Shown here piece after piece: positions 2,169-44,691 of a DNA stretch of 44,692 nt. The stretch lies in contig QKMY01000003.1 of assembly GCA_003242895.1 (NCBI GenBank), positions 1 to 44,692 of the forward strand. The letters run 5' to 3'. Position 1 is the first letter of the stretch, and each line of letters begins with the position of its first letter. Below the pieces are notes generated by a model. The model worked only from the letters and a program-made list of their open reading frames with translations, did no database searches and was not told where the DNA came from. The translations under genes were made by a program, and so were the position numbers. Source of the stretch: Candidatus Margulisiibacteriota bacterium. Lineage in GTDB: Bacteria; Margulisbacteria; Riflemargulisbacteria; GWF2-39-127.

Positions 2169-3824
2169 ATGTATAGAAAAATAATAGTGTTGGTTTTATG
2201 TATAATAATTGTAGCGCTTATCGGGTGTGGACAGTTAACCAAACAGCATATGGATATAAATACGACACCTTTATCGGCGCAAACCCAATCTTATACTAAC
2301 GAGACAGTTGCAGCTACAAGTAAAATATCTATTTCTTTAGGACAAATGAATACAGAACTAAGCTCGCTACCGGCAGAAAAAATTCTGATGTCAGCGCAAT
2401 CAGTTAAAATTGAATCAGCTGTCTCAGAATATATGACATTCGATGTCACCAGTAATATATTTTTTCAGGTAAATCGTTTGGGAAAAGTAGAAGCAGATGG
2501 TTGTATTACTCTAAACATTGTTTACAAGGACACTGCTAAGCCTAACTTGTTAAAATTGAGGGCATATATGCTAGGTAGCGATGGGCTAGCAGGTCAAAAG
2601 ATTACCCAGAATGTAATACCTATTGAGATGAAGATCGCCGATGATCAGCCATTCAAGTCACTTTCTAGCTCTAACATGAGCATCAAAGTATGGGATGCTA
2701 CATTTATGCAGGGGATAAGCCAAGTATACGTAATAAAGTTGAGAGGAGATTTCTCGAATGCGTTTAAACAGCAATATACTGGGACGATAGTTTTTGATTT
2801 CGTCAGAGATGAAAAGTTGGGATGGTTCAACGTCGGAGAGCGAGGGCTCTCAGCCGGAAAGGCCGATTACAATAATTTGCGTATAGATAATGGAATGCTT
2901 TATATGGTGTACAAGGATTATTCTGAAGGAGGCAAGGCTACGGTAACGAAATATGACGGGACTGCCTGGGAGCCTATCGGTGAACCAGGGTTTACTCAAA
3001 GTTCAGTTAATTATACTTCGCTTAGCGTATATAATGGAACTCCCTTTGTAGCGTTTAAAGACTCAGCTAATTTTAATAAAGCAACAGTAATGAAATATGA
3101 CAGGAGTAACTGGGTAACGGTTGGGAATCCTGGCTTTTCATCCGGTGAGGTTTTTGATACGACGATCGTAGTTAATAATGGAATTCCCTATATTTCTTTT
3201 CGGGATATCGGTAGCGGCGGTAAAGCAACTGTAATGAAATATGATGGAGAAAAATGGTTAAGTGTCGGTAATGCAGGATTTTCGGATGGCGCTGTATCAT
3301 ATCTCTCGATGTGTCTTGATAAGGGCTGTCCGTACGTTGTTTACTCAGATTGGGGTGGCAGCCAAAAAGCTACTGTGATGAAATACGATGGTAATAATTG
3401 GGTGGCTATCGGTGCAAAAGGATTTTCTTCGGGAGCAGCGTTTTATACGTCTCTTTGCGTTGATGATGGAGTACCCTACGTCGCGTATCAGGATTTTGGC
3501 AATACCGGCAAAGCTACTGTCATGAAGTATGATGGTATAAATTGGGTTAATGTCGGTACGCCAGGATTTTCGCTTGCGCATGCCTCCAATACTTCATTGT
3601 CTGTTTATAACGGAATTCCTTATGTTGCATATCAAGATGAAGTTTTCGGAAGTAAAATAACCTTAGCAAAATACGATGGTAATCATTGGAATACAATAGG
3701 AAATCCAGGTTTTTCAAGTGGGTTCGGCGGCGCTCCCTCCCTATATATATATAGGGGGGTTCCCTATGTATCATATATAAATAATGATAATTCCGGGAAG
3801 CTGGAAGTAATGAAGTTTTTTTAA
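2169..3824 (+). CDS. Lipoprotein with a seven-repeat beta-propeller
   Basis: The 551-aa protein has a signal peptide with lipobox LIGC (lipidated Cys20). An N-terminal module (about residues 50-215) is shared with the lipoproteins at 31277, 32837 and 34508; the tell-tale stretches are GQK..Q.VIPIE and LRGDF.NAFKQQY.GTI. The C-terminal half consists of seven repeats of about 47 residues, each with a W..VG..GFS start, a SL.V..G.PYVAY.D centre and a KATVMKYDG end. This count suits a seven-bladed propeller, though that is inferred from repeat number. The function is unknown; binding at the cell surface or in the periplasm is the likely role. It has its own terminator and is apart from its paralogues. 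Confidence 0.8.
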   Translation: MYRKIIVLVLCIIIVALIGCGQLTKQHMDINTTPLSAQTQSYTNETVAATSKISISLGQMNTELSSLPAEKILMSAQSVKIESAVSEYMTFDVTSNIFFQVNRLGKVEADGCITLNIVYKDTAKPNLLKLRAYMLGSDGLAGQKITQNVIPIEMKIADDQPFKSLSSSNMSIKVWDATFMQGISQVYVIKLRGDFSNAFKQQYTGTIVFDFVRDEKLGWFNVGERGLSAGKADYNNLRIDNGMLYMVYKDYSEGGKATVTKYDGTAWEPIGEPGFTQSSVNYTSLSVYNGTPFVAFKDSANFNKATVMKYDRSNWVTVGNPGFSSGEVFDTTIVVNNGIPYISFRDIGSGGKATVMKYDGEKWLSVGNAGFSDGAVSYLSMCLDKGCPYVVYSDWGGSQKATVMKYDGNNWVAIGAKGFSSGAAFYTSLCVDDGVPYVAYQDFGNTGKATVMKYDGINWVNVGTPGFSLAHASNTSLSVYNGIPYVAYQDEVFGSKITLAKYDGNHWNTIGNPGFSSGFGGAPSLYIYRGVPYVSYINNDNSGKLEVMKFF

Positions 3825-6921: not shown

Positions 6922-9399
6922 ATGTCAAAATATATAATTATCGGCGGCGTTGCCGGCGGTGCTACGACGGCGGCACGACTAAGAAGACTCGACGAAAAAG
7001 CAGAGATTCTCCTGATAGAAAGAGGCGAAAATATCTCCTATGCTAATTGCGGTTTTCCCTACTATGTTGGTGGCGTAATAGCAGAAAGGGACAAGCTGTT
7101 TGTCCAAACTCCTGCAAGTTTCAATCAGCGTTTCAATATTGATGTTCGAGTCAAATCGGAGGCAATAGATATAGTACGGAGTAATAAAACGATCAAGATT
7201 AAAAAAGCAGATTCCGGCGAAGTCTATGAAGAAAGCTACGATAAACTAGTATTTTCTCCGGGAGCAACGGCAATCAAACCGCCTATTCCAGGGATAGATG
7301 AACAGGGTGTTTTTACGTTGCGAAGTGTAGAAGACACTGACCGGATCAAGCAATATATGGCCCAAGGTCACCCCACTAAAGCGGTTATTGTCGGTGCCGG
7401 ATTCATAGGGCTTGAGATGGCAGAGAATCTTCGCCACAAAGGTATCGAGGTGACGATCGTAGAAATGGCCGAACAGGTCATGAACATGCTTGACTTCGAA
7501 ATGGCCGCACAAGTACACCAACATCTACGTTCAAAAAACATCACACTTCATCTCAAGGATAGTCTTAGATCATTTGCGAGAGAAGGAAATACTATTGTTA
7601 TTCAACTCAGCAGCGGCAAAGAGATTCGTTGTGATATGGTTATTCTATCATTAGGAATTAAACCTGACAGCGCATTGGCATCGAAAGCCGGGCTAAAAGT
7701 CGGGGCTTTTGGCGGCATAGAAGTAAATGAATTTCTACAGACTTCTGATCCTGATATCTATGCAGTAGGCGATGCTATTGAATTCCTTAATCCTATAATA
7801 AATATAAAAATGCCAACGTACCTTGCAGGACCTGCTAATAAACAGGGTAGGATTGCTGCTGACAATATAGTAGGAGGCAATAAAAAGAAATATGCCGGGT
7901 CGATTTCAACTGCAATTGCCAAAGTATTTGATCTCAGTGTTGCAACAGCAGGAATATCGGAAAAAATCGCAAAGAAATACGGAGTCCAATATTACGCATC
8001 AATTACTCACGGAGCTTCCCATGCTGGCTATTATCCTGATTCAACACCTCTGACAATTAAAATTATCTTTGCAAAAAATGACGGGCAATTATTAGGAGCA
8101 CAAGTTATCGGACAAGAAGGGGTTGATAAACGAATAGATCTTCTTTCGACGATCATAAAGAATAAGGGAACGATCTATGACCTTGAGGAAATAGAACATG
8201 CTTACGCGCCTCCTTATTCATCGGCAAAAGATCCGGTTAATATTGCCGGGTTCGTAGCAGAAAATATACTGACTTCTGCTACAAAAGTTATTCATTGGGA
8301 AGAACTTATTTCACTAAAATCCGATGACATTTTTCTCCTTGATGTCAGGACTCCAGAGGAATACTCTATTGGAAATATCGATGGATCTGTTAACATACCT
8401 CTCGATACAATAAGAAATAATCTTGATAAAATCTCAAAAACAAAAAAAATCGTAATTTACTGCGCTGTAGGACTGCGAGGCTACCTGGCTTCCCGGATTC
8501 TCGACCAAAACGGGTTCAAGGAAGCATACAATCTTTCAGGCGGATACAAGACCTATAGTGCGGCTACCAAAAAGCATAGCAATGAAGATACTTCGAAGGT
8601 ATATATTGGAAAGGATGATACTATTTATCAAACGGACCCGAATGAGAAAATGCAAATAGCTAATGGTACGATTACAATCGTAGATGCAACCGGAATCCAA
8701 TGTCCCGGTCCGATCATCAGGCTAAAAAGCGAGATGGACCGAATAAAGGAGAATGAACAACTAAAGATTATTGTCAGCGATAAAGGCTTTGCAAATGATG
8801 TTGCATCCTGGTGTAATGTGACAGGAAATAAACTAATCTCGCTCGAACAGCAGTCAACCAAAATCATTGCAATAATCGAAAAGTCGACACAAGGAGTAAC
8901 CCATTCTATGACCGACATAGATGTAAAAAAAGACAGAAAGACAATAATTGTCTTTAGTGACGATCTCGACAAAGCTCTGGCAGCATTTGTTATTGCCAAT
9001 GGAGCTGCATCAATGGGAAAAAAAGTCACAATGTTCTTTACTTTCTGGGGACTTAATGTAATAAAAAAACTCCAAAAGCCAAAGACGAACAAAGATCTTA
9101 TGGGAAAATTATTCGGGATGATGATGCCGACCAGCAGTCTTGGATTAAAATTATCAAAAATGAATATGCTCGGGCTGGGAACATTTATGATGCGTTTAAG
9201 AATGAACTTCAAAAAAGTTGATTCTATTGAACAGATGATCGATACCGCAATCAAAAGTGGAGTAGACCTTGTTGCGTGCCAGATGTCCTTAGATGTTATG
9301 GGTGTCAATAAGGAAGAACTGCTTGATGGTGTTCAAATTGGTGGAGTTGCAATGTATTTGGAAGCAGCAGAAAAGTCAAACCTGAACTTGTTTGTGTAA
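6922..9399 (+). CDS. CoA-disulfide/persulfide reductase fused to rhodanese, TusA and DsrE-like domains
   Basis: The 825-aa protein starts with an FAD/NAD(P)H disulfide reductase of the CoA-disulfide reductase type (GGVAGG dinucleotide motif; the single active cysteine Cys43 in SYANCGFPYY). A dimerisation domain follows, then a rhodanese domain with active Cys514 (YCAVGLRG), a TusA-like domain with Cys594 (QCPGP) and a DsrE-like C-terminus with Cys786. Related multidomain proteins reduce CoA persulfides or polysulfide and pass sulfane sulfur between cysteines. All four expected cysteines are present, so an active sulfur-relay enzyme is likely. The partner regulator is 2 bp upstream. Confidence 0.9.
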   Translation: MSKYIIIGGVAGGATTAARLRRLDEKAEILLIERGENISYANCGFPYYVGGVIAERDKLFVQTPASFNQRFNIDVRVKSEAIDIVRSNKTIKIKKADSGEVYEESYDKLVFSPGATAIKPPIPGIDEQGVFTLRSVEDTDRIKQYMAQGHPTKAVIVGAGFIGLEMAENLRHKGIEVTIVEMAEQVMNMLDFEMAAQVHQHLRSKNITLHLKDSLRSFAREGNTIVIQLSSGKEIRCDMVILSLGIKPDSALASKAGLKVGAFGGIEVNEFLQTSDPDIYAVGDAIEFLNPIINIKMPTYLAGPANKQGRIAADNIVGGNKKKYAGSISTAIAKVFDLSVATAGISEKIAKKYGVQYYASITHGASHAGYYPDSTPLTIKIIFAKNDGQLLGAQVIGQEGVDKRIDLLSTIIKNKGTIYDLEEIEHAYAPPYSSAKDPVNIAGFVAENILTSATKVIHWEELISLKSDDIFLLDVRTPEEYSIGNIDGSVNIPLDTIRNNLDKISKTKKIVIYCAVGLRGYLASRILDQNGFKEAYNLSGGYKTYSAATKKHSNEDTSKVYIGKDDTIYQTDPNEKMQIANGTITIVDATGIQCPGPIIRLKSEMDRIKENEQLKIIVSDKGFANDVASWCNVTGNKLISLEQQSTKIIAIIEKSTQGVTHSMTDIDVKKDRKTIIVFSDDLDKALAAFVIANGAASMGKKVTMFFTFWGLNVIKKLQKPKTNKDLMGKLFGMMMPTSSLGLKLSKMNMLGLGTFMMRLRMNFKKVDSIEQMIDTAIKSGVDLVACQMSLDVMGVNKEELLDGVQIGGVAMYLEAAEKSNLNLFV

Positions 9400-9500: not shown

Positions 9501-11240
9501 ATGTCATTCAACTTTCTCCCTACAAACAAAACCGAAATGAAGCAAAAAGGCTGGTCGAGCATCGATGTTGTCATCATTACAGGAGATGCTTATGTTGATC
9601 ATCCGTCATTTGGCGCGGCTATCATCGGAAGATATCTTGAAAGCCAGGGGTTCACGGTTGGAATAATTGCCCAGCCGGATTGGAAACGGGATGAAGATTT
9701 CCTGTCTATGGGAACGCCGAACCTTTTTTTTGGCATAACCGCGGGTAATCTTGACTCCATGATAGCTAATTATAGCCCGGAGAAAAAACACCGCAGAAAA
9801 GATGAATATTCTGAAGGCGGTATATCTGGAAATCGCCCGGATAGAGCTGTCATCGTCTATTCCAATATCGTGAGAAAGTTGTTTTCAGATACGCCTATCG
9901 TTATCGGTGGTATCGAAGCAAGTCTGCGAAGGCTTGCATACTATGATTACTGGGATAACAAAATTAGAAGATCAATCCTCTTCGATACCCGGGCAGAAGT
10001 TCTGGTCTATGGCATGGGAGAAAAGGCGATTGCCCAGATAGCAAAAAATATTCAAAATGGAGATTCACTTAAAGGAATAAAAAATACCGCATACATTTCC
10101 GATTCTCTCCCAGCGGACGATCATATTATCCTGCCATCATTTGAAGAAGTATCCGAGGACAAAGTTAAGTACTCCCAATCAGTGAAAGAATATTATACGG
10201 AATCAGTCAAAAAAAAGCCAAGGACTATTGTTCAGGCTTGCCAGAAAAAATATGTTATTACTGAAACTCCGGGTGTTATCAATAATGATGAACTCAACTC
10301 AGTCTATATGCTGCCCTTCACCCGGGAAGCCCACCCAAAGTACCAGAAGCCCATCCCGGCTTTTAGCTTCGTTAAACATTCGGTCGTCTCTCACCGGGGT
10401 TGTTATGGCGGATGTTCGTTCTGTACTCTCAATTTGCATCAAGGGAAATACATTAACAGCCGTTCAATTGAGTCAATGCTTAAAGAGATAAAAGATATTA
10501 TTATTCCACAGAAGGATTTTAAAGGATATATCCTTGATATTGGCGGACCGTCAGCGAACATGTACGCTAGCAAATGCGAAAAAGATGAAGGTTGTATGAG
10601 AGTAAGCTGCCTTGTTCCTAATAAGTGTAATAATCTAAAAGTAGATTTCCAAAAGCAATTGCAGTTATTACGTCAAGCCAGTTCAATTAAAGGGATAAAA
10701 AAAGTATTCGTTAACTCAGGTGTTCGCGTTGATCTGGCCCTTAAGTGTCCTGAATACATGCACGAGCTCGTTGCGAACCATGTATCCGGTCAGCTCAGTA
10801 TTGCACCGGAACATATGTCTCCCAGTGTGCTTAACGCAATGAATAAACCTGAATTTTCAATCTACGAAAAATTCTTTTCTCTGTTCGACAAGATTAGTTC
10901 CGACGTAGGAAAAAAACAATATATTATTCCATATTTTATTGCCTCCCACCCAGGATCATCATTAACTGATATGTATATGCTGGCAATGTACCTGAAAAAA
11001 AATAAAATGAGAGTGGAGCAAGTACAGAACTATACTCCGATACCTATGACACTCTCATCCTGCATGTACTATACCGGCATTAATCCGATGACCGGAAAGC
11101 CTGTCTATGTTCCAAAAAGTGAAGAGAGGTTGCTACAAAGGGCCCTCTTGCAGCCACAGTTCGAAGACAACAGGGTTCTCGTTAGAAAAGCGCTTAAAAT
11201 GCTGGGCAAAGAAAAAGATTATGCTTATTTAACTCGATAG
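9501..11240 (+). CDS. YgiQ family radical SAM protein (UPF0313)
   Basis: The 579-aa protein matches the YgiQ family over its whole length. It has an N-terminal vitamin B12-binding-like region starting DVVIITGDAYVDHPSFG, the conserved IGGIEASLRR block, and the radical SAM cluster motif CYGGCSFC (Cys301, Cys305, Cys308). The C-terminal NYTPIPMTLSSCMYYT block is also typical. The biochemical role of YgiQ is not established. The ribosome site is weak (AAGG about 9 bases before ATG). A PHP-domain gene follows after 15 bp and may share the transcript. Confidence 0.92.
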   Translation: MSFNFLPTNKTEMKQKGWSSIDVVIITGDAYVDHPSFGAAIIGRYLESQGFTVGIIAQPDWKRDEDFLSMGTPNLFFGITAGNLDSMIANYSPEKKHRRKDEYSEGGISGNRPDRAVIVYSNIVRKLFSDTPIVIGGIEASLRRLAYYDYWDNKIRRSILFDTRAEVLVYGMGEKAIAQIAKNIQNGDSLKGIKNTAYISDSLPADDHIILPSFEEVSEDKVKYSQSVKEYYTESVKKKPRTIVQACQKKYVITETPGVINNDELNSVYMLPFTREAHPKYQKPIPAFSFVKHSVVSHRGCYGGCSFCTLNLHQGKYINSRSIESMLKEIKDIIIPQKDFKGYILDIGGPSANMYASKCEKDEGCMRVSCLVPNKCNNLKVDFQKQLQLLRQASSIKGIKKVFVNSGVRVDLALKCPEYMHELVANHVSGQLSIAPEHMSPSVLNAMNKPEFSIYEKFFSLFDKISSDVGKKQYIIPYFIASHPGSSLTDMYMLAMYLKKNKMRVEQVQNYTPIPMTLSSCMYYTGINPMTGKPVYVPKSEERLLQRALLQPQFEDNRVLVRKALKMLGKEKDYAYLTR

Positions 11241-23601: not shown

Positions 23602-23707
23602 ATTTCATACCCTTCCTAAAAGGATATATTTAGCATTCTCGACAAAAAATAAAAACGTATTTTTTGACCTTTCCATTTCTCTTATTTGTCCCATATAATT
23701 GATTAAT

Positions 23708-26700
23708 ATGGATACGGCAATAACTAATACCAACAGAGAAATAATAGCGGATAGCAAGACAACGATCCTCGTTCAGGGCTTGTCAGGCACCGGGAAAACT
23801 TCTTTTATCATCGACAAGTATGTATACCTTGTTACCAATAGCCGGCTACAGGCTTCGAATATCCTTGTACTCACAAACAACTCAAAGAATGCGGAATTCA
23901 TTAAGACAAGTATTATAAAGAAGCTGGCTCGAAGTTTTGATGAGACATGGATTAATACCTTTTATTCTTTTCCTGCCAGAATCCTTCGTGATTATGCATT
24001 TGAGGGTGGTGCGGAATATGACTATGAAGATGTTAATCGGTACAAATCATTGCTCATCATCGAGCACTTGATTCAGGACAATCAATGCCGTTTATCCGAA
24101 GAATTCACCTGGTATCTTGGCAAAAAAAGCTTTCTGAAAAAAGTTCTGGATACCATCCAATGGTTCAAAACGAATCTGATAACCATCGATCAGCTAGCCG
24201 GAATCGTGAATACCCATTTCCCACAGAACAACTACCTTGCCTCTATACTTTTCATTTATCGTAAGTATCAGGAGTTTCTTGGTGACTATCTGCTTTGCGA
24301 TCACTTGGATATTGTCAATAATGCCTACTCAATCGTAACAACAAACCCGGGTGTTAAGCAAAAAATCCAAGATCAATTCAAGTTAATTATGGTCGATCAT
24401 ACGGAAGATATGAATTATCTTCAATTACGGCTATTAAAAGAAATATGTGCTCCGCAAGCCACGACCGCTAACTTTTTTTATGATATCCATCAAACGCTGG
24501 CAGAAGAGAACTATACCGGGACGTTATTAGATCATATAAAAAGGCATTTCAAACCGGAGGAAATTGTTCTTTCGTCGATACATCGGAATTCGTCTCTCAC
24601 TACTGTTGCTGAAAGTATTGTATCGAAAAAACTTCTTTTCCCTGAGCCTAGACCGGAGATTGAGCTTTATAAGTGCTGTGATGAAAACAATGAATTCGAA
24701 TTCGTATTCCGTTCAATAAAAGAATCGATTATTACTAACAAGCATCTTACCTATAATGATTTTGCCATCGTGACTCGTAACCTCAAACGACATGCATACC
24801 GTATTCGCGAACAATCACGTCTTGCCGGTATCCCTTGTATTTTCGGGACTGATATTGATTTCTACAACCAGAAGCCGGTTGTATTACTTTTCGCTCTCAT
24901 CGCTTTTTTGACTGACGAGAGCAACACTCGATTCAAGCAGATCATCCCGCTTCATAGCAATGATATCCCGATGACAAAACTCTTTTCCCTGGAGCAAAAG
25001 GTTAACGGGGAGTTGCTAACAGAAATCTGCATTAAATCCGATACTAAAACAAAGGGGCAATTGTCGCCGGAGGAACTGGCAATTGCAATCGAGTTGCGAG
25101 AATTCTACAGTGCACTCAACAAAACTAAAAGGTGGATTGGTTCCTGTACAAGCATTACGGAATGTATCTATAAACTGTACCGCGAGTATGTTCTGGGATT
25201 CATATATCGTAGCGGTAATCTTGAAGGATTGGATTCGCTCACCTCACTTTTTTCAATGGTCAAAGAGTATGAAACCATAACAACGAACTTTGACAGGAAA
25301 ATCGACATGTACGAATTTTTACGAACCATAGAAGCAGTCACACTGCAATACTGTGATGAAATGGAATTGAAAAACACAGCAGATTACGACGTCGGAGTAA
25401 AAATACTCTCTATGCACCAGCTTAAAGGTGAAGAGTTTGACTCTGTCTTCCTGGTCCATTTTACTGAGGAAGAGTTCCCCAAAGTTAATAGCAGGATAAC
25501 TATTATCGACGGTAACCTATTAGCCTTATCACAGAACCTGCATGACGAACTTCATCAACCGTTCTATATCTCGCCGATAGTAACTCTTGAAGAAATACTT
25601 GAACAGGAAAAAAGGCTGCTTTATATTTCTCTCACAAGGGCAAAAAGCCGGGTATTCATTTCCTATCCGGCAACCGTTGATAATAAAGAACAGCATGCGT
25701 CTTCCTACCTGTCAGATGTCATTCATCCTGATAATATGCATACTTACGACGGCTCCCGAATTACAACCTTTCTCAATAGCTCAGAGGTTGAGATAACACT
25801 CCTTAAGAATTATTCATCGGTCTCGGCAGAACTAAAACAATTCCTGGTGATGAACGGCATTTATATCGACACAGCTATTTTCTCTCAGAAAAAAGAAGAA
25901 CTCAATATTCCTTTTAGCGATAAAAGAAAGTACTCAGCGTCAGCTATAAAAACGTTTCTTAGCTGTCCCAAAAAGTTCTATTATTCCAAGGTACTTGGGC
26001 TTGAGACACTTGGGAAGGAACGATTGCATATTGGCACGGAAGTTCATCGAGTTCTCCAGGTTTTTCATAGAATATTTCCTTCTCTTCACGGCATTGAACA
26101 TTCGACAATGCAGGCTATACTTGCCCGATTGTTAGATCGTGTCTGGCTTGGCTACGAACAAGCTCGCGACTTACCGGAAAATGTAAAATTAAAACGCTCC
26201 AAAAAAGGAGCGAGGGCTTTATTCAGTACAGAAATTATTGCCTCGTATTATTATAAAATGTTTGTTACGATATGTGTTCGCTACGTGGCCCAAACTCGAA
26301 CTATCATGGAAGGCCGGACCGCATATTTCCTGGAAAAAAAAGTAGCGTTCTCCCTCAACGGTATAGGCCTTTATGGTGTAATCGACAGAGTGGACAAAGA
26401 CAGGGACGGGCGGTACCATATTGTCGATTACAAAACTTCGGGAGCTAATGCAGCCTTCACAGCGCGAAGTGAAAAATTGAAATACATCAATATTGATAAG
26501 GACATTGATTATATTCCTCAAGATTTCCAGATGCCGCTCTATTATCTGGCAAGCTGTAACGCACTCAAGCTTCAACCTGAATCAATAGAATACTATTATC
26601 TCAACCAGACTGACAGTAACGAGCAATTCAAACGGATGAAGATATTATTCTCAGGCACGGAAGAGAAGAACACTGCTGTCATAAGTGAAGATGAAATAAA

Positions 26701-26830
26701 TGAGATAATCGTTAATTTGACGACGACCATTGATCGAATAAAGGCGGGTGCTTTTCCTTCGAAGCCCGACACCCAACGAACCTGCCAGCAATGCGACTAC
26801 TCCGAAATATGCCGGGAAAGCCAATTATAA
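23708..26830 (+). CDS. UvrD-like helicase/PD-(D/E)XK nuclease, AddB-like subunit
   Basis: The 1040-aa protein has a good Walker A (GLSGTGKT, residues 24-31), but the DEFQDT motif of UvrD enzymes is replaced by VDHTEDMN. Late motifs survive (SMHQLKGEEFD, LYISLTRAKSR). The C-terminal nuclease has GVIDRVD (Asp893) and VDYKTSG (Asp907, Lys909). Cys753, Cys1026, Cys1029 and Cys1035 are spaced like the 4Fe-4S cysteines of AddB. It pairs with the next gene by a TAATG overlap, so both probably form one end-resecting recombination complex. No ribosome site is seen before the ATG; TATAAT at 23694-23699 suggests a nearly leaderless message. Confidence 0.8.
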   Translation: MDTAITNTNREIIADSKTTILVQGLSGTGKTSFIIDKYVYLVTNSRLQASNILVLTNNSKNAEFIKTSIIKKLARSFDETWINTFYSFPARILRDYAFEGGAEYDYEDVNRYKSLLIIEHLIQDNQCRLSEEFTWYLGKKSFLKKVLDTIQWFKTNLITIDQLAGIVNTHFPQNNYLASILFIYRKYQEFLGDYLLCDHLDIVNNAYSIVTTNPGVKQKIQDQFKLIMVDHTEDMNYLQLRLLKEICAPQATTANFFYDIHQTLAEENYTGTLLDHIKRHFKPEEIVLSSIHRNSSLTTVAESIVSKKLLFPEPRPEIELYKCCDENNEFEFVFRSIKESIITNKHLTYNDFAIVTRNLKRHAYRIREQSRLAGIPCIFGTDIDFYNQKPVVLLFALIAFLTDESNTRFKQIIPLHSNDIPMTKLFSLEQKVNGELLTEICIKSDTKTKGQLSPEELAIAIELREFYSALNKTKRWIGSCTSITECIYKLYREYVLGFIYRSGNLEGLDSLTSLFSMVKEYETITTNFDRKIDMYEFLRTIEAVTLQYCDEMELKNTADYDVGVKILSMHQLKGEEFDSVFLVHFTEEEFPKVNSRITIIDGNLLALSQNLHDELHQPFYISPIVTLEEILEQEKRLLYISLTRAKSRVFISYPATVDNKEQHASSYLSDVIHPDNMHTYDGSRITTFLNSSEVEITLLKNYSSVSAELKQFLVMNGIYIDTAIFSQKKEELNIPFSDKRKYSASAIKTFLSCPKKFYYSKVLGLETLGKERLHIGTEVHRVLQVFHRIFPSLHGIEHSTMQAILARLLDRVWLGYEQARDLPENVKLKRSKKGARALFSTEIIASYYYKMFVTICVRYVAQTRTIMEGRTAYFLEKKVAFSLNGIGLYGVIDRVDKDRDGRYHIVDYKTSGANAAFTARSEKLKYINIDKDIDYIPQDFQMPLYYLASCNALKLQPESIEYYYLNQTDSNEQFKRMKILFSGTEEKNTAVISEDEINEIIVNLTTTIDRIKAGAFPSKPDTQRTCQQCDYSEICRESQL

Positions 26831-29800
26831 TGAATACAAACGAACAACAACTGCAAGCCATAACTTATCCTGACACAAAACCGCTCAAGATCCTCGCGGG
26901 AGCGGGGACTGGGAAAACCTTCGTGCTGACCAACCGGTTTCTTCACCTGGTCGAGCAGCTTCGGTATAAGCCGCAGGACATAGTCTGCTTAACTTTCACG
27001 GTTAAAGCTGCTGACGAGATGAAAACACGAATTATCAACGAGCTGCTCAATAAGAAAATCATCAGGAATAAAAGCGATATGGCATTAAGCTATATTTCTA
27101 ATTTCCATTCTTTCTGCCGCCGGTTACTAGAAGAAAATCCCTTTATTGTGCCGATTGATCCGAGTGCCGAAATTATCAGTGAACCTGATCAGATTGTCCT
27201 AATGAGGGATATTTGCAAAGAATTCCTTGATCTGAAACTTCCTGTTCCCGAAGAATTCCGGGACCTCTTTACCGCAATGCCTATCAAAAATTTCGGTTTA
27301 TTTGTGGACAACATGATTAATGTAATCAATAAGATAAAAGACTGCCTGTTGTCTCCCGAGAATTATAAAAAATACAGTCTGAAAATGCTGGAAAATAACA
27401 AGGGGTTGCTAGCCAATGACCTCTACGAAAAAGCCAATAGCAAAGAAGTCCATGCAAGTACCAGAAAAAAATATAGCCGGCTAATCGAATACGTTAACCA
27501 GGATTTTGCTGATGAGAGAACCGTCATGGAAATGATCTATGTGATCTATCAGCGCTATGAAGAAAAGCTCAGAGAAAAGAACAAAATCGACTTTGGCGAT
27601 CTGATTTACTATACATTTGAACTTCTCAAAAGAAAACCTGATATAGCAAATAAATTCGCATATTTACTAATCGACGAATTCCAGGATACGAATAACGCTC
27701 AATATGAGTTGATTAAGCTGCTCTCCCGACCAGGGTTCGAGAATGTGACTATTGTCGGGGACATCAAGCAGTCAATCTACGAGTGGCGGGAAGCGCGACC
27801 GGGAAATGTAACGATTTTTCCTGGAGAAGAGATCAATCTTGTGCTTAATTACAGATCAACTGCACCTATTTTAGACCTGGCTTACACTATATTGAAAGAA
27901 GACATGCCGGATGAAAAAAAGTTGATCCAGGCATCAAACAGCAACGAGAATACTATCGTCCATCTTTTTAAAGGAACGAATCGGGAAGCTGAAGCGTTAT
28001 ATATTGCCCGTAAGATCAACCAGCTTCTGACTGAAGGTAGCAACCCAGGGGATATTGTCATCCTTATGCGTAGCGTTAACAGTGCCCATCTTTATTCCGA
28101 TAAAATTAAAGAACTCGGAATACCTTGTGTGATCATGGGTTCTTCTGGATTTTTTGAACAGAACATTATTAAGGATATCACGGCTTTTATTCGGCTTATC
28201 AATAACCCGTATAATGAGTTCTCGTGGATAAGGGTTTTAGCCAGTCCTCTTTACCACTTCACGGATTATGATCTAAGCCAGCTCATCCAAGAAGGGAAGC
28301 AAGAGAAACTGCCGATCGCCGAGATTATTAAACAAGGGAAATTCGGTCTGCTAGGAATCGAAGAAATTAAAATATTACAGAATTTTATGGCAATACTTAC
28401 TGAAGCAGGAGAAAGAATGAAGCGCTATTCCTTACTCCATGTATTCATCTGGCTGCTCGAACAATCTCATTATGTGAGAAAGCTGGCTGTATTTAACAAA
28501 ATCGATGAAATAAACGCTATTAACGAGTTTCTCAGTGTTATGAACGACTACTTTTCGAAAAATATTTCTTCGACCATCGATGAGTTTCTCGAATACATCG
28601 AAATCATTAAAAAAAGTGATCAGAATATTTCCATAGTGTCTCAATCGAGCATGATCAGGATTATGAGCGTTCACCAATCTAAAGGTCTCGAATTCCCAAT
28701 AGTTTTCGTATGTAATGTCCGTCCTCAGAGCTTCCCGATCACTGCGAGTTCTCATCCTTACTCTTTTTCCCGGGATTACGGCGTTATTGTAAAAAACGCT
28801 CTCAATACAGAAGAAAAAGAGAGAAAGAACGTCAAGTTTTCTGAAATGGTGAAAGATGACGAATCTCTGAAACGGCTGAACGAAGAAAAGAGAGTACTTT
28901 ATGTCGCAATTACCAGAGCAAAACGAGGACTTTACCTGACTTCATCAGAAGGCGGACGGGGGAAAAGCTTCTATGATGAAGTAGCAGAGTTAAAAGAAAC
29001 CGGGCTTAAGAACATTATGATAGATCAGCTTATGGAAGAACCTCTGTCATTATATACAAACCAGGATTTGAACCTTCAATCGCTTAATGAAGATATTATC
29101 AGGAACTACCTTCAACACCAAAAACTAATTACAGCTACTGCTGGTCAAAAGAAATTGCTGTCACTCTCATTTTCCCAAATTTCAATTTACGATACCTGTC
29201 CGTTGAAATACAAATACCGCTATATTGATAAGATCCCGGTGTTTGATGAGTTCGACAATTACTCGATGCATTTCCAGGGTGATGAACTGGGGCTTGATGC
29301 TATGTACCTGGGAGATATTCTTCATAAGCTTATTCAGCTCTACCATTATCGTAAACGCAAGGACCTCCATGTTGATGAAATATTTCTTGCAGATAAGTTA
29401 AAAAAAGCCATTTTACACAAAAAGAAGCCCGACAGCTTAATCTTAAAAGGCAAAGAAATACTCGACAACTACTTGCGATCTCCCCTTGCCGCCAGAAATA
29501 CAATGGAAGAAGAAAAACCGTTTACAATCTGGTTTGCAAACAAAGAGTTCGATGTCATGCTCAAAGGCAAGATAGATCGGATCGATACCCTCGACGACCA
29601 TATTCAAATAATCGATTACAAAACTAATGTAAGAATTGAAAAGGATAAATTCCGCAAACAACTGGCAATCTATAAAATCGCTTTACAAGAACTTTACGCG
29701 CCAGAAAAAATTATAAAAACTAGTTTATACTTCCTTCGCAGCAGCAAAGAAATCGACTTGAACTACTCTGATAATGAACTAGATGCTGTAAAACGGGAAA

Positions 29801-29946
29801 TCCTGTCGACAGCCAGTAATATTTACCAGAACAAATTTTCGAAGAGTCCAAAGGCCTACTGCAAGGTCTGCGAATTCTCAATGTTCTGCCCCGACTCAAT
29901 CACCAGACATGATCGGGTAACGCACAATCAAATGCAGCTTTTTTGA
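26830..29946 (+). CDS. UvrD-like helicase/PD-(D/E)XK nuclease, AddA-like subunit
   Basis: The 1038-aa protein starts at the ATG overlapping the upstream stop. All superfamily 1 helicase motifs are intact: GAGTGKT (24-30), IDEFQDT (Asp282, Glu283), GDIKQSIYEWR, NYRS, SVHQSKGLEFP and YVAITRAKRG. The C-terminal nuclease has GKIDRID (Asp916) and IDYKTN (Asp929, Lys931). Unlike usual AddA it also has four cysteines in the AddB cluster pattern (Cys790, Cys1011, Cys1014, Cys1020). It is the likely motor of the two-subunit complex that resects double-strand breaks for recombination and degrades foreign DNA. Confidence 0.88.
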   Translation: MNTNEQQLQAITYPDTKPLKILAGAGTGKTFVLTNRFLHLVEQLRYKPQDIVCLTFTVKAADEMKTRIINELLNKKIIRNKSDMALSYISNFHSFCRRLLEENPFIVPIDPSAEIISEPDQIVLMRDICKEFLDLKLPVPEEFRDLFTAMPIKNFGLFVDNMINVINKIKDCLLSPENYKKYSLKMLENNKGLLANDLYEKANSKEVHASTRKKYSRLIEYVNQDFADERTVMEMIYVIYQRYEEKLREKNKIDFGDLIYYTFELLKRKPDIANKFAYLLIDEFQDTNNAQYELIKLLSRPGFENVTIVGDIKQSIYEWREARPGNVTIFPGEEINLVLNYRSTAPILDLAYTILKEDMPDEKKLIQASNSNENTIVHLFKGTNREAEALYIARKINQLLTEGSNPGDIVILMRSVNSAHLYSDKIKELGIPCVIMGSSGFFEQNIIKDITAFIRLINNPYNEFSWIRVLASPLYHFTDYDLSQLIQEGKQEKLPIAEIIKQGKFGLLGIEEIKILQNFMAILTEAGERMKRYSLLHVFIWLLEQSHYVRKLAVFNKIDEINAINEFLSVMNDYFSKNISSTIDEFLEYIEIIKKSDQNISIVSQSSMIRIMSVHQSKGLEFPIVFVCNVRPQSFPITASSHPYSFSRDYGVIVKNALNTEEKERKNVKFSEMVKDDESLKRLNEEKRVLYVAITRAKRGLYLTSSEGGRGKSFYDEVAELKETGLKNIMIDQLMEEPLSLYTNQDLNLQSLNEDIIRNYLQHQKLITATAGQKKLLSLSFSQISIYDTCPLKYKYRYIDKIPVFDEFDNYSMHFQGDELGLDAMYLGDILHKLIQLYHYRKRKDLHVDEIFLADKLKKAILHKKKPDSLILKGKEILDNYLRSPLAARNTMEEEKPFTIWFANKEFDVMLKGKIDRIDTLDDHIQIIDYKTNVRIEKDKFRKQLAIYKIALQELYAPEKIIKTSLYFLRSSKEIDLNYSDNELDAVKREILSTASNIYQNKFSKSPKAYCKVCEFSMFCPDSITRHDRVTHNQMQLF

Positions 29947-30857: not shown

Positions 30858-31276
30858 GCCGGTAGTAATATCACATATGAGTTAACAGATAAACGGGTAT
30901 ATTTGTGCAATCAAAATTAGCAGCTTCATCAGTCTGCAAAACTTTCTAGTTTTCAAACAAGAAATACAACATGTACGTTATCAATTGAATAATTATCTAT
31001 TTATTCCTGATCGTTTTCAAAATACCTGCAAAATCCTTTTTTTTTCCATTGTTTTATATATTATAATATTGAATTTTTATGTATATATTTCCTCTGTAAT
31101 TAGTGCTATATATGCCTGCAACTAATCTGAGGCTGGGTAAGTTATGATCTGTATAAGAAATAACTTCAGCCGGATTTGGGTGAAATTAATACGCTGATAT
31201 GCGTTGTTTTGTTACGAAAGGAGATTGATTAACCAAGCATTAAGTATCGGGGAAGAACAAAAAGGGAGGGAAGTTA
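30858..31276. other. Divergent regulatory region before the lipoprotein cluster
   Basis: These 419 AT-rich bases hold no gene. TATAAT at 31062-31067 is a possible -10 for the + strand without a good -35. A bulged hairpin lies at 31131-31171 (GGCTG and AAGTTAT with ATAACTT and CAGCC). The 50 bases before the start resemble those before the paralogue at 34508. Confidence 0.45.
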
Positions 31277-31440
31277 ATGAACAAGAAAGTACTCTGGTTT
31301 AGTTTGGGCATACTCTGTCTTACCCTTATCGGCTGCGGGCAATTAACGGACCAACATACCGAACGAGTATCAGCACTCGGTGATCAGATTTTGAATCAAA
31401 ACGGGAACAATACCAATACCGGTGATAATGATGAGGTACT
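31262..31440 (+). repeat. Near-identical 179-bp repeat, copy 1
   Basis: This stretch covers the ribosome site and first 55 codons of a lipoprotein and recurs at 34493-34671 with one difference (T31392 against C34623, changing Leu to Ser). Just beyond it, the two genes differ at many synonymous sites. Confidence 0.9.
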
Positions 31441-32728
31441 TGCTACTAACAAGATCACCCTGACTATCGGGGACCCAAAAGCCAGTTTATCTCCACAAGC
31501 GATAACCGCCAAATGCCTGATAGCCTCTCAATCAGTCAATATTGTAGCTGATGTCCCGGGTTTCTTAACCTTCCAGGCATGCAGCGATATTTTCTTCAAT
31601 GTTACTCAGCTCTCGAAGATAGAAGCTGATGGCTCGATCAAGCTCAAAATTATCTATAATGATCTGCTCAGTAAGGACATCGAATCAATCAAGGTCAAAG
31701 CCTGTATGCTCGATGCTAATGGGTTGATCGGTCAGAAAGAACCCCAGAGCATCATTCCACTGGAAGTTAAAGTCGTTGATGAGAAACCATATCAAGACCT
31801 GAATACTAATTGTGCCGAGCTCAAGAACTGGAAAGCTCCGTTCACTCAAGGGATCAATAAGGTACTCACGCTCAAGCTCAAAGGCGATTTTACCAATGCA
31901 CTCAAGCAACAGTATAAAGGGACGATATTGCTCAAGTTGGTCAAGGAAAAATCAACAGCAGATAATACATGGAAACATGTCACTAGTACATTGCCGTGGA
32001 ATTTCTTTTTCGATAATAGTGCCACAACATACAACGGTTATATGTGGGTTGTCGGGGGATTCGACTTTAATAAAGTATTGAAGTCCATTAACGGCAAAGA
32101 GTGGACCGAGACTTCCGCTAATACCCCCTGGACAGAGAAACCAAATGCAATTGCCTTCAAAGATAAACTATGGGTTTTTGGGTATCAAGGAAACACCAAT
32201 CTATGGAATACTTCAGATGGAAGCAGTTGGCAACTGATCAATTCTTTTTTCCTCCCAAGTTATATTGATATACAGGGTTTAGCAGTTTTCAGAAACAAAC
32301 TATGGGTTATAGAGTTCGCTATATCCGATAGTGATTTTGGTCCATACATTCAATCTTCCGGCGATGGTGTTAATTGGACACCGATATCCCGGCCTGACTG
32401 GGGTGATTTCTATCCCAGAAAAGCTCTGGTTTTTAAAGATAAATTATGGGTGCTGGGAGATGCTAATTATGCCTGGACGTCCGAAGACGGGATAAACTGG
32501 TCCAGGACCACGTTCACCGGATTGCCTGAACCACGAACCACAGAGGATTATTCAGTTTCAAACAACAAACTCTGGGCGACTATCAGTAATGTTTTGTATT
32601 CTTCCGAAAACGGTTTGAGGTGGAATCGAGAGGCTAGCAATCCTGTTTTTATCGATACACTTCTTTCTTATAACAATTTATTGTGGGGATTTGGAAATGG
32701 CAACTTGTGGTATTTCAATAACAAATAA
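31277..32728 (+). CDS. Propeller lipoprotein, paralogue A
   Basis: The 483-aa protein has lipobox LIGC (Cys20). The shared N-terminal module spans about residues 56-225 and contains Cys80, Cys102, Cys143 and Cys179, absent from the paralogue at 2169, which may form disulfides. The C-terminal half has about six repeats with a KLWV.G strand and a S.DG..W turn, a kelch-like propeller pattern. The function is unknown; exposure on an outer or inner membrane face is inferred. It is first of three tandem paralogues. Confidence 0.78.
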   Translation: MNKKVLWFSLGILCLTLIGCGQLTDQHTERVSALGDQILNQNGNNTNTGDNDEVLATNKITLTIGDPKASLSPQAITAKCLIASQSVNIVADVPGFLTFQACSDIFFNVTQLSKIEADGSIKLKIIYNDLLSKDIESIKVKACMLDANGLIGQKEPQSIIPLEVKVVDEKPYQDLNTNCAELKNWKAPFTQGINKVLTLKLKGDFTNALKQQYKGTILLKLVKEKSTADNTWKHVTSTLPWNFFFDNSATTYNGYMWVVGGFDFNKVLKSINGKEWTETSANTPWTEKPNAIAFKDKLWVFGYQGNTNLWNTSDGSSWQLINSFFLPSYIDIQGLAVFRNKLWVIEFAISDSDFGPYIQSSGDGVNWTPISRPDWGDFYPRKALVFKDKLWVLGDANYAWTSEDGINWSRTTFTGLPEPRTTEDYSVSNNKLWATISNVLYSSENGLRWNREASNPVFIDTLLSYNNLLWGFGNGNLWYFNNK

Positions 32729-32736
32729 TAGTCCAT

Positions 32737-32775
32737 CAGGACAGGTTTGCTTTAATCCAGAAGACACCTGTCCTG
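32737..32775 (+). terminator. Terminator or attenuator hairpin
   Basis: CAGGACAGGT pairs perfectly with ACCTGTCCTG around 19 bases. TTAAAAAA follows, not a T-run, so its strength is uncertain. Confidence 0.55.
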
Positions 32776-32792
32776 TTAAAAAATCCCCTGGA

Positions 32793-32820
32793 TAAATAAA
32801 TAAATAAATAAATAAATAAA
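32793..32820 (+). repeat. Tetranucleotide tract (TAAA)7
   Basis: Seven perfect TAAA units are followed by TA and then the ribosome site AGGAGG (32822-32827) of paralogue B. The tract lies between the upstream hairpin and the start codon. Confidence 0.97.
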
Positions 32821-32836
32821 TAGGAGGTTGTATCTA

Positions 32837-34342
32837 ATGAAAATCAGACTATTGCTGCTAATAAGTATATGCATCATAGGATTTATGTTTGCCGGATGCA
32901 GTAAGTTAACCGATCAGGTCCTCGACCACAATGCTTTGATTAACAACAAAACTGATGATGCCAGCGAGGCCCGTTCGGTATTGGCTCTCAGTACTGTCAG
33001 TATTTCTGTTGATAAATCCACAGGAAACAAGTTACGTACCAATTGCACAGGCAGTTCGAATGGATTATTCGATGCCTATAGTACAATATCCTTTGATATT
33101 CAGTCCCCGGAAAGTATAGTAGCTAATGGGACAATTAAGCTGACGGTGGCTAAAAGCGTGTTCAATGACTCGTCGATCTCCAATCTCAGTGTAGAGGCTT
33201 ATCTGGCGGAAGGCAGCGGACTCATCGGACAGAAAGAATCCCAAAGTATCATTCCGCTGGAAGTATCAGTGACCAACGGGACTCAATTTAAGCGACTGGA
33301 TCAGCAGCCAATTACACTCAAGGAATGGCCAGGCCCCTTCAGCAACCCGACGACAGAATCTGTAACGCTCAAGTTGGCAGGAGATTTTTCCTACGCACTG
33401 AAACAGTGCTATAAGGGGGCTATTATACTAAAACTCATAGCTCAAAAAAAACCTGTAACTTGCGAATATATATGGAATGAAGAGACAGAAAATGCAGCCT
33501 TCTCGACGAGACGAGATCATGCTTCGGTGGTATTCGATAATAAATTATGGATTATCGGAGGTGAGTCGAAGATTGGAGGTCCGTTATTGAATGATGTCTG
33601 GTATTCTTCGGACGGAAAGAACTGGATTCAAGCAACTCCTTCCGCAAACTGGTCACCAAGAAGAGGTCATAAATGCGTCGTCTTTGATAACAAAATATGG
33701 TTGCTCGGAGGATTCGAAGTCGGAACTAAATTTGATAATGATGTCTGGTATTCTTCTGATGGAAAAAATTGGACACAGGCGGTTGCTTCAGCACCCTGGC
33801 AGGCACGAGGATTTCACGCGGCCACAGTTTTTAACAACGCATTATGGATAATGGGCGGGACCGTTAATTTGCCAGGTCTTACAGTTAACGACGTATGGCA
33901 TTCCCTAGACGGAAGAAACTGGACACAGGCTACACCTTCTGCAAATTGGCAACCAAGGAATTATTCGCAGAGTGTAATATTTAATAACAAAATGTGGATT
34001 CTGGGAGGAACTTTCTTCCGGGATGCCTGGTATTCCACTAACGGAATAATTTGGAATAAAGCAACTGATACTGCCCCCTGGCAAGGTATTAGTGCAATTA
34101 CTAGTGTGACCTTTGATAATAAGATCTGGGTAATGGGAGGCGTCAATCAACAGGGTATTCCTCAAAATGATGTGTGGTATTCAACTGATGGTGCAAATTG
34201 GAATCAAATTGCTAACGCACCATGGCAGGTTAGATGGGGGCAAGCCGGTTCTGTATTTATGGATAAAATATGGATCACTGGTGGTCTTGGGACTACAACA
34301 ACACTTGCTGATGTCTGGTCTATGAGAAAAGTATGCAAATAA
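32837..34342 (+). CDS. Kelch-like propeller lipoprotein, paralogue B
   Basis: The 501-aa protein starts at ATG 32837, nine bases behind AGGAGG; a TTG at 32828 is too close to the site. The lipobox is FAGC (Cys21). The N-terminal module is the most divergent of the four paralogues but keeps GLIGQKESQSIIPLEV and LKLAGDFSYALKQCYKG. Six repeats of about 48 residues follow, each with R..H..VVFDNKLWIIGG, NDVWYSSDGKNW and a Q A.P.A.W turn, a clean six-bladed kelch pattern. Kelch propellers usually bind protein or sugar partners. The (TAAA)7 tract before it may vary its expression. Confidence 0.8.
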   Translation: MKIRLLLLISICIIGFMFAGCSKLTDQVLDHNALINNKTDDASEARSVLALSTVSISVDKSTGNKLRTNCTGSSNGLFDAYSTISFDIQSPESIVANGTIKLTVAKSVFNDSSISNLSVEAYLAEGSGLIGQKESQSIIPLEVSVTNGTQFKRLDQQPITLKEWPGPFSNPTTESVTLKLAGDFSYALKQCYKGAIILKLIAQKKPVTCEYIWNEETENAAFSTRRDHASVVFDNKLWIIGGESKIGGPLLNDVWYSSDGKNWIQATPSANWSPRRGHKCVVFDNKIWLLGGFEVGTKFDNDVWYSSDGKNWTQAVASAPWQARGFHAATVFNNALWIMGGTVNLPGLTVNDVWHSLDGRNWTQATPSANWQPRNYSQSVIFNNKMWILGGTFFRDAWYSTNGIIWNKATDTAPWQGISAITSVTFDNKIWVMGGVNQQGIPQNDVWYSTDGANWNQIANAPWQVRWGQAGSVFMDKIWITGGLGTTTTLADVWSMRKVCK

Positions 34343-34358
34343 CTGTGTAATCTGAGAA

Positions 34359-34386
34359 CAGGCATCTCTTTAGCGAGAGGTGCCTG
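34359..34386 (+). terminator. Hairpin after paralogue B
   Basis: CAGGCATCTCT pairs with AGAGGTGCCTG (11 pairs, one GU) around TTAGCG. No T-run follows, so it may be a processing or weak termination site. Confidence 0.5.
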
Positions 34387-34492
34387 CCTCAACTATATCA
34401 CAACCAATATTTCTACATAACTTTTTTATCCATTACCGTTCTTCGATATGAAAGGAGATTATTAATATGGATTAAGTATAGAAAGAATAAAT

Positions 34493-34671
34493 AAGGGAGG
34501 GAAGTTAATGAACAAGAAAGTACTCTGGTTTAGTTTGGGCATACTCTGTCTTACCCTTATCGGCTGCGGGCAATTAACGGACCAACATACCGAACGAGTA
34601 TCAGCACTCGGTGATCAGATTTCGAATCAAAACGGGAACAATACCAATACCGGTGATAATGATGAGGTACT
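34493..34671 (+). repeat. Near-identical 179-bp repeat, copy 2
   Basis: Second copy of the stretch at 31262-31440, again covering ribosome site and start of a lipoprotein gene. The copies lie 3231 bp apart in direct orientation. Confidence 0.9.
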
Positions 34672-35995
34672 GGCAACCAACAAGATCACCCTGACTATCG
34701 GAGACCCCAAGGCCTGCCTATCTCCTAAGGCAATAACCGCCAAGTGCCTGATAGCTTCCCAGTCCGTCAATATTGTAGCTGATGTACCAAGCTTCTTAAC
34801 CTTCCAGGCCTGCAGCGATATTTATTTTAATGTCACGCAGCTTGGCAAGATAGAAGCCGATGGCTCGATCAAGCTCAAAGTTATCTACAATGATCTGCTC
34901 TATAAGGATATCGAATCAATAAAAGTCAAAGCTTGTATGGTTGATGCTAATGGGCTCATCGGACAGAAAGAACCTCAGAGTATAATTCCACTGGAAGTCA
35001 AAGTTGTGGATGAGAAACCATATCAAGACCTGAACACTAATTGTGCCGAGCTCAAAAACTGGAATGCTCCGTTCACGCAAGGCATCAACAAAGTGCTCAC
35101 TCTCAAGCTCAAAGGCGATTTCACCCATGCCCTCAAACAACAGTATAAAGGGACGATATTATTGAAACTGGTGAAGGAGAAGAAACCTGAGTGCGCTGTT
35201 AAATGGACTAAGGCAGAAAAAGCCTGGCCATTCGCGAATTTGACCTTCGAGCATAGTTTTGGGTTTGTATTCAAGAATAAAGTTTGGCTTGTTGACGATA
35301 TTGAAGGATTTGACCTTGCCTTTCAATATTCAAACGATGGCAAGGTATGGAATTCAGGACCTCAGCTAGATAATGGGGGAGACTATCAGGAAAAAATACG
35401 GACTGCGGAATTAAATAACAAGTTGTGGCTTGTAAATATTGGAAGCACCCTTTCAGATGATCCCACAGATCCCGAATACTATTTTCATATTAGATATTCC
35501 TGCGACGGACTGAACTGGAGCAAAACGTTTACTCCAACACTTAATGTAACACCCCAGGCCCAATTTACTGCATTTAATAATAAATTATGGGTTTTTGATA
35601 AGGGGGCTGCTTTGAGTTCTACTGACGGGATACATTGGACGAGAGAAACTAGTTCGGCACCTTGGACAGATTTGGTTAACTGCGTTGTCTTTGACAACAA
35701 GCTTTGGGTTACAGATAGTGCTGGGAATGCCTGGTTCTCATTGAATGGGATAAACTGGAATCAAGCTCCAAAATTCCCTGCCGGGGATTTATTAGTCTAC
35801 AACAATAAATTATGGATTATTGATCAGGATGAGAAGTTGTACTATTCAACCGACGGCAAGACATGGGTGTTATATTCAGCTTCACATGACTGGGATACAC
35901 CGGGACATCTGTTTTCAATTATATTTGATAACAAATTATGGATTATAAAACAACCCAATCTTGGAACTGAAACCTGGTATTTATGTATCAAATAG
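34508..35995 (+). CDS. Propeller lipoprotein, paralogue C
   Basis: The 495-aa protein has the same signal peptide and lipobox as paralogue A (Cys20). The N-terminal module is about 95 percent alike in protein and keeps all four cysteines, plus Cys70. After about residue 225 the sequence changes to a different set of about six repeats with NNKLW.. strands and S.DG..W turns, only distantly like those of paralogue A. The gene therefore looks like a shared anchor joined to a new binding head. It is the last of the tandem trio. Confidence 0.78.
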   Translation: MNKKVLWFSLGILCLTLIGCGQLTDQHTERVSALGDQISNQNGNNTNTGDNDEVLATNKITLTIGDPKACLSPKAITAKCLIASQSVNIVADVPSFLTFQACSDIYFNVTQLGKIEADGSIKLKVIYNDLLYKDIESIKVKACMVDANGLIGQKEPQSIIPLEVKVVDEKPYQDLNTNCAELKNWNAPFTQGINKVLTLKLKGDFTHALKQQYKGTILLKLVKEKKPECAVKWTKAEKAWPFANLTFEHSFGFVFKNKVWLVDDIEGFDLAFQYSNDGKVWNSGPQLDNGGDYQEKIRTAELNNKLWLVNIGSTLSDDPTDPEYYFHIRYSCDGLNWSKTFTPTLNVTPQAQFTAFNNKLWVFDKGAALSSTDGIHWTRETSSAPWTDLVNCVVFDNKLWVTDSAGNAWFSLNGINWNQAPKFPAGDLLVYNNKLWIIDQDEKLYYSTDGKTWVLYSASHDWDTPGHLFSIIFDNKLWIIKQPNLGTETWYLCIK

Positions 35996-44592: not shown

Positions 44593-44691
44593 ATCGAGTA
44601 GGAGGTAGGTGATTAATTCACCTACCGACCTCTCACACCACCGTACGTACGGTTCCGTATACGGCGGTTCAACAAGAATTAATGTACTTCT
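44593..44691 (-). mobile_element. 3' end of a group II intron, inverted copy
   Basis: The reverse complement equals bases 1-99 except for one base near the domain IV side. It contains the same domain V and domain VI hairpins. The intron body lies beyond the window end and is transcribed leftward. The flanking sequence after TCGAT differs from the left copy, so these are two separate insertions. Confidence 0.85.

Follow-up and report, generated by a model that had tools for sequence, protein, structure and literature searches.

The window analysed here (44,692 nt, positions 1 to 44,692 of contig QKMY01000003.1 from the Candidatus Margulisiibacteriota bacterium assembly GCA_003242895.1) encodes four predicted lipoproteins, three of them in tandem (lipoproteins 1 to 3) and the fourth at 2169 (lipoprotein 4), which have in common an N-terminal homologous region of ∼170 residues, hereafter the module, and differ in the C-terminal domain, or head, that follows it (Table 1). 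A signal peptide and a lipobox (LIGC, FAGC) are present in 4 of 4 proteins. Relative to the module of lipoprotein 3, identity is 95% in lipoprotein 1, 41% in lipoprotein 4 and 36% in lipoprotein 2, the middle tandem gene. All three tandem genes have QSIIPLE without change, lipoprotein 4 has QNVIPIE in its place, and the motif GDF..A.KQ.Y.G.I is found in all four. Leave-one-out profile hidden Markov models (HMMs) recovered every module member at E ≤ 3e-15, whereas the best-scoring of 2200 shuffled sequences gave E 0.06-0.5, so that the homology lies far above chance; the initial annotation, in which three adjacent lipoproteins and a fourth at 2169 were proposed to share an N-terminal module, is thus corroborated by open reading frames, signal peptides, lipoboxes, motifs and HMMs alike. 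For the middle gene, ATG 32837 is the most likely start codon and is preferred to TTG 32828, because its Shine-Dalgarno sequence AGGAGG sits at 32822-32827.

Table 1. Lipoprotein genes, modules and associated sequence elements in the window (positions counted from its first nucleotide).
Feature	Position	Strand	Remarks
Lipoprotein 1	31277..32728	+	Lipobox Cys20; module to ∼residue 225, then six-repeat kelch/DUF6242-like propeller head
Module (beta-sandwich), lipoprotein 1	31433..31951	+	
Lipoprotein 2 (middle tandem gene)	32837..34342	+	Divergent module and clear kelch propeller head
Module, lipoprotein 2	32897..33451	+	Counted from lipobox Cys
Lipoprotein 3	34508..35995	+	Shares 95% module identity with lipoprotein 1; head different, a predicted six-bladed propeller
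Module, lipoprotein 3	34664..35182	+	AlphaFold2 model pLDDT 90.1, pTM 0.86
Lipoprotein 4	2169..3824	+	Module and seven 48-residue repeats (Rax2-like propeller head)
Module, lipoprotein 4	2226..2816	+	Counted from lipobox Cys
Duplicated block, copy 1	31213..31950	+	∼64 nt upstream, signal peptide and module; 88% identical to 34447-35181
Duplicated block, copy 2	34447..35181	+	
(TAAA)7.8 microsatellite	32792..32822	+	Abuts AGGAGG (32822-32827), the Shine-Dalgarno sequence of lipoprotein 2; candidate tract for phase variation
Perfect 10-bp inverted repeat (hairpin)	32737..32775	+	Between lipoprotein genes 1 and 2; without U-tract

The heads of the window genes fall into different repeat types. 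The seven repeats initially described in one protein were confirmed in lipoprotein 4, where they have an exact period of 48 residues, while the kelch-like repeats ascribed to the others are clear in lipoprotein 2 (Pfam Kelch_1, PF01344, 84.3 bits; cut-off 20.1 bits) and, by comparison, divergent in lipoproteins 1 and 3. Kelch_1 scores 18.1 bits against the head of lipoprotein 1, under the cut-off, and the Pfam scan gave no Kelch_1 match for that of lipoprotein 3; both heads exceed the 29-bit gathering cut-off of DUF6242 (PF19755), at 32.3 and 34.4 bits, respectively. In a long model of lipoprotein 3 (mean predicted local distance difference test score, pLDDT, 79.7; predicted template modelling score, pTM, 0.54), the head forms six groups of three to four strands, so that six blades are predicted, with lower confidence than for the module; the fold matches of this model are propellers, including Ycf48 and chain 9hjm_H of the Porphyromonas gingivalis outer-membrane assembly machine (BAM).

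Beyond the window, module searches of the source genome, a 3.35 Mb, 100%-complete draft compared here with relatives no closer than class, detected ten readable copies and one broken remnant, of which four copies lie in the window and the seven others (one being the remnant) elsewhere. A kelch/DUF6242-like propeller head is carried by four copies (lipoproteins 1, 2 and 3 and a gene on contig C54), the Rax2-like head with its seven exact 48-residue repeats by lipoprotein 4 only, and an FN3+LamG head by two genes on contig C45, while two copies (contigs C69 and C19) are headless. In the remaining case (contig C32, locus L026:6441-9179) the module constitutes the last ∼120 residues of a secreted protein of 912 residues that has a GH8 domain (E 2e-32) and lacks a lipobox; this gene is adjoined by one for a LamG lipoprotein without the module (L026:9526-10656). 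From its C-terminal place in a GH8 protein that lacks a lipobox it follows that the module is a portable domain and not merely an anchor. The heads, all taken to be propellers in the initial annotation, therefore include other types, and C-termini differ among relatives rather than being always of one kind. A lipobox ([LVI][ASTVI][GAS]C or close) is present in 9 of 9 lipid-type copies found in this genome, as well as in the single distant relative described below, the variants among these ten proteins being LIGC, FAGC, LAGC, MAGC, IAGC and VSGC.

Among 74 genomes of the phylum that were searched, the module was detected in only one other (E 2.7e-15), that of candidate division WOR-1 bacterium RIFCSPHIGHO2_01_FULL_53_15, and in none of the remaining 72. 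WOR-1 falls among the Margulisbacteria/Saganbacteria (PMC6349859 for the group), to which the genome of the window would likewise belong. The WOR-1 copy is again N-terminal in a lipoprotein, is followed by another C-terminus without a Pfam match, and in a reverse search recovers the family of the window. Pattern scans with the closest module copies as queries, which reach close relatives only and could miss remote ones elsewhere, found no relative in viral contigs or in 84,980 GTDB species, and a scan of the same reach with the WOR-1 protein matched only itself. The module has no sequence match in Pfam, NCBIfam or PDB, which rules out a known named family there, as the initial annotation had supposed, and no library search placed it in a known propeller family. 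By the libraries searched, the module constitutes a new, lineage-specific domain family, set in a modular architecture of a known kind.

How heads have been exchanged can be followed in lipoproteins 1 and 3, between which DNA identity begins ∼64 nt before the start codon and stops at the boundary between module and head. The two heads share 35% protein identity over their aligned part and gave no DNA match to each other in this comparison. Within the module, after codon 60, synonymous divergence (dS) is 0.86 and nonsynonymous divergence (dN) 0.038, and the module is therefore under purifying selection, while the 5′ end looks recently gene-converted, since dS is 0.08 over the first 180 coding nt. 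A head that had arisen in the same duplication should, at dS 0.86, have stayed recognisable in DNA, and the simpler reading is thus that the module was joined to a different head or was converted between genes. The sharp DNA break between these tandem copies constitutes direct evidence for head swapping. A remnant on contig C45 at ∼152.8 kb (L028 about 9775-10031) represents a frameshifted and internally deleted FN3+LamG module gene, in which the start of a module, 92% identical to the neighbouring gene, is fused to the last residues of a LamG head at a joint with ATTG microhomology.

Heads of these types also occur on other stalks. The kelch head family was found in 13 of the 74 phylum genomes, that of the window included; at the loci read outside this genome it is mostly carried by lipoproteins with Thr/Ser-rich linkers, immunoglobulin (Ig)-like stalks or almost no stalk (stalk types were judged by eye), and on contig C51 of this genome it is joined to a carboxypeptidase-regulatory-like stalk. 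Relatives of the Rax2-like head, 28-40% identical to it, occur on plasmids of Acidovorax and Pseudoalteromonas, in proteins that have other anchors and are annotated as choice-of-anchor U, tandem-95 or Ig-like, and the plasmid matches to lipoprotein 3 (Leptospira) all lie in its propeller head. Because kelch and Rax2-like heads sit on other stalks elsewhere, stalk and head both appear to be interchangeable parts, with exchange running both ways.

The middle tandem gene is distinguished by the TAAA tract in front of it: the 3.35 Mb genome has no other (TAAA)6+ array, and in the 131 kb of it examined the tract is the sole microsatellite of 3-7-nt units with at least four copies. Lipoprotein 2 thereby shows the mark of a phase-variable gene, a microsatellite at a regulatory position, which suggests that its expression may vary through the tract; the position of the tract suggests an effect on translation initiation or on the mRNA. 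In scans for promoters and terminators, shuffled DNA yielded more sites than the sequence itself.

The module is predicted to fold as a confident beta-sandwich, all-beta except for a short helical turn, in an AlphaFold2 model built from 11 sequences (scores in Table 1). The modelled sandwich is complete and begins with its own N-terminal strand, although a monomer model cannot show strand exchange. Its highest-probability fold matches in PDB are pilins, namely FimG (1.00; TM 0.54 by target), CfaB (0.99), CooA (0.96) and the CS17 pilus (0.95), none of the PDB matches reaching E 1e-3; a search of a viral fold library gave one weak match that was not informative.

We consider it probable that the module is an undescribed, lineage-specific stalk domain of mosaic envelope lipoproteins with interchangeable binding heads. 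These proteins would be exported by Sec and cut by signal peptidase II at the lipobox, leaving a Cys that carries the lipid and, after it, a short disordered linker, the ∼170-residue beta-sandwich stalk and one of several heads (a kelch/DUF6242-like propeller, a seven-repeat Rax2-like propeller or FN3+LamG), with some copies remaining headless. The lipid anchor would tie the protein to a membrane, most likely the outer one, the module would space or dock the head, and the head would bind a ligand, most plausibly a glycan or a protein. New variants could arise when the upstream region, signal peptide and module are duplicated and joined to another head, gene conversion would keep the 5′ parts alike, and the middle tandem gene may be switched through its TAAA tract.

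Omp85 is present in the genome and the cell therefore has an outer membrane; two Omp85 (PF01103) genes lie side by side on contig C24 (29814-32582). In Escherichia coli, Gly or Ser after the lipidated Cys does not retain a lipoprotein at the inner membrane, and Gly or Ser is the residue found at this position in the copies of the genome. Of the initial proposal that surface proteins exchange heads while keeping an anchor, the combination of one module with different C-termini stands, while the side of the envelope on which the proteins lie, and their surface exposure, are what we infer. ‘Anchor’ is too narrow a term for the module, because it is also the last domain of a GH8 protein that has no lipobox; the lipobox would be the anchor and the module a stalk or adaptor domain. 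Some observations weigh against the interpretation of the module as a stalk bearing exchangeable, surface-exposed heads. Lipoproteins 1 (C-GQLTDQ, one acidic residue) and 4 (C-GQLTKQ, none) lack the surface-export signal of the Bacteroidota type, which calls for two acidic residues no more than six positions from the Cys, and the C-terminal position of the module in a GH8 enzyme without a lipobox suggests that its job may be binding rather than spacing. Furthermore, the module tree is poorly resolved and remains compatible with a single origin of each head type (approximately unbiased test, p-AU 0.13 and 0.485); as it cannot settle how often heads moved, it was dropped as proof of head swapping.

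The main alternative, which we regard as unlikely, holds that the module itself binds a ligand or docks, in the manner of a carbohydrate-binding module (CBM) or an adaptor, and targets secreted proteins to one surface or extracellular partner, with the heads and the GH8 domain as cargo. An anchor or spacer role is indeed hard to see for a module placed C-terminally in a secreted, non-lipidated GH8 protein, two copies are headless and many of the weak structural matches are CBMs; however, the CBM matches have TM-scores of 0.14-0.28 and none reaches E 1e-3, and the conserved module residues (GLxGQ, P, W and GDF..A..Q.Y.G.I) look more like positions in the core and in turns than like a binding patch on the surface. 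An extension of this idea, in which a pilin-like, lineage-specific docking sandwich brings adhesins with a lipid anchor together with a secreted glycoside hydrolase on one common surface structure, with heads diversified by recombination and one gene switched by TAAA, seems to us decidedly improbable; if true, it would represent a ligand-switching surface system in an uncultured relative of cyanobacteria.

The pilin matches, together with the coexistence of headless and headed versions, would also agree with a fimbria assembled from lipoprotein precursors, with headless copies as the subunits of its stalk, headed ones as the adhesins of its tip and the module as a pilin domain that exchanges strands. 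This is very doubtful given that no usher (PF00577) was found in the genome by a search for which the E. coli control was positive, that no module copy matches a Pfam pilin family, that the pilin matches do not attain E 1e-3 and that the sandwich is predicted to be complete with an N-terminal strand of its own; a chaperone-usher subunit proper is ruled out by the lack of an usher gene. It is most improbable of all that the copies with propellers serve the outer-membrane assembly machine as accessory lipoproteins in the manner of BamI, as could be supposed from the match of NCBIfam BamI to the heads of lipoproteins 1 and 3 (E about 1e-8 to 1e-9) and from the BAM chain among the fold matches. 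The scores of 37.5 and 34.1 bits fall below the equivalog cut-off of 370 (NF053688), which rules out membership, the match is confined to the propeller, and the module, in contrast to that of a dedicated subunit, also occurs with a LamG head, a Rax2-like head or none; moreover, BamI has been reported to be mostly confined to Bacteroidia.

Several other features of the window were recorded. Group II intron domain matches with identical scores and opposite orientation occupy both contig ends (23-94, + strand, and 44598-44669, − strand), and both breaks of the contig probably fall in copies of a single group II intron. Two adjacent UvrD-type helicases of ∼1040 residues with C-terminal PD-(D/E)XK/Cas4-like nuclease domains (23699-29946) form an AddAB-like pair, a Cas6-like CRISPR protein is encoded near the contig end (43140-43904), the remaining locus lying outside the window, and an 825-residue fusion (6922-9399) combines pyridine-nucleotide oxidoreductase, rhodanese, TusA and DsrE-like domains.

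The module adds a beta-sandwich domain family that is absent, by sequence, from Pfam, NCBIfam and PDB. It comes from a phylum near the Cyanobacteria in which envelope proteins have received little study, and it provides a clear natural case of the mixing of anchor-plus-stalk and head, in which two tandem genes show where the boundary of recombination lies. Phase variation of an envelope protein would extend to this lineage if the TAAA tract does vary. In Neisseria meningitidis, a TAAA tract upstream of the promoter controls the phase-variable expression of nadA (PMC2791445); the tract of the window consists of the same tetranucleotide in similar copy number and likewise precedes an envelope-protein gene, but it abuts the Shine-Dalgarno sequence and is so far a candidate for such control. 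The chaperone-usher and class 5 pilins FimG, CfaB and CooA resemble the module as the best-probability fold matches of its model, whereas the module belongs to lipidated proteins, is joined to globular heads and has neither a sequence match nor an usher gene. BamI, a lipoprotein in which an N-terminal Ig-like beta domain precedes a six-bladed propeller (PMC12578637), has a comparable domain layout, and the heads of lipoproteins 1 and 3 align weakly to its propeller (NF053688); they differ in scoring ten-fold under the cut-off, in a module that does not match the N-terminal domain of BamI, in their variable heads and in being multicopy. DUF6242 (PF19755) accommodates the same two heads and covers the head only, with the module outside it. 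Closest in setting are the kelch-type lipoproteins of Margulisbacteria and WOR-1, in which the same head family is carried by lipidated proteins on Thr/Ser-rich linkers and on Ig-like or carboxypeptidase-regulatory-like stalks, in place of the module described here.
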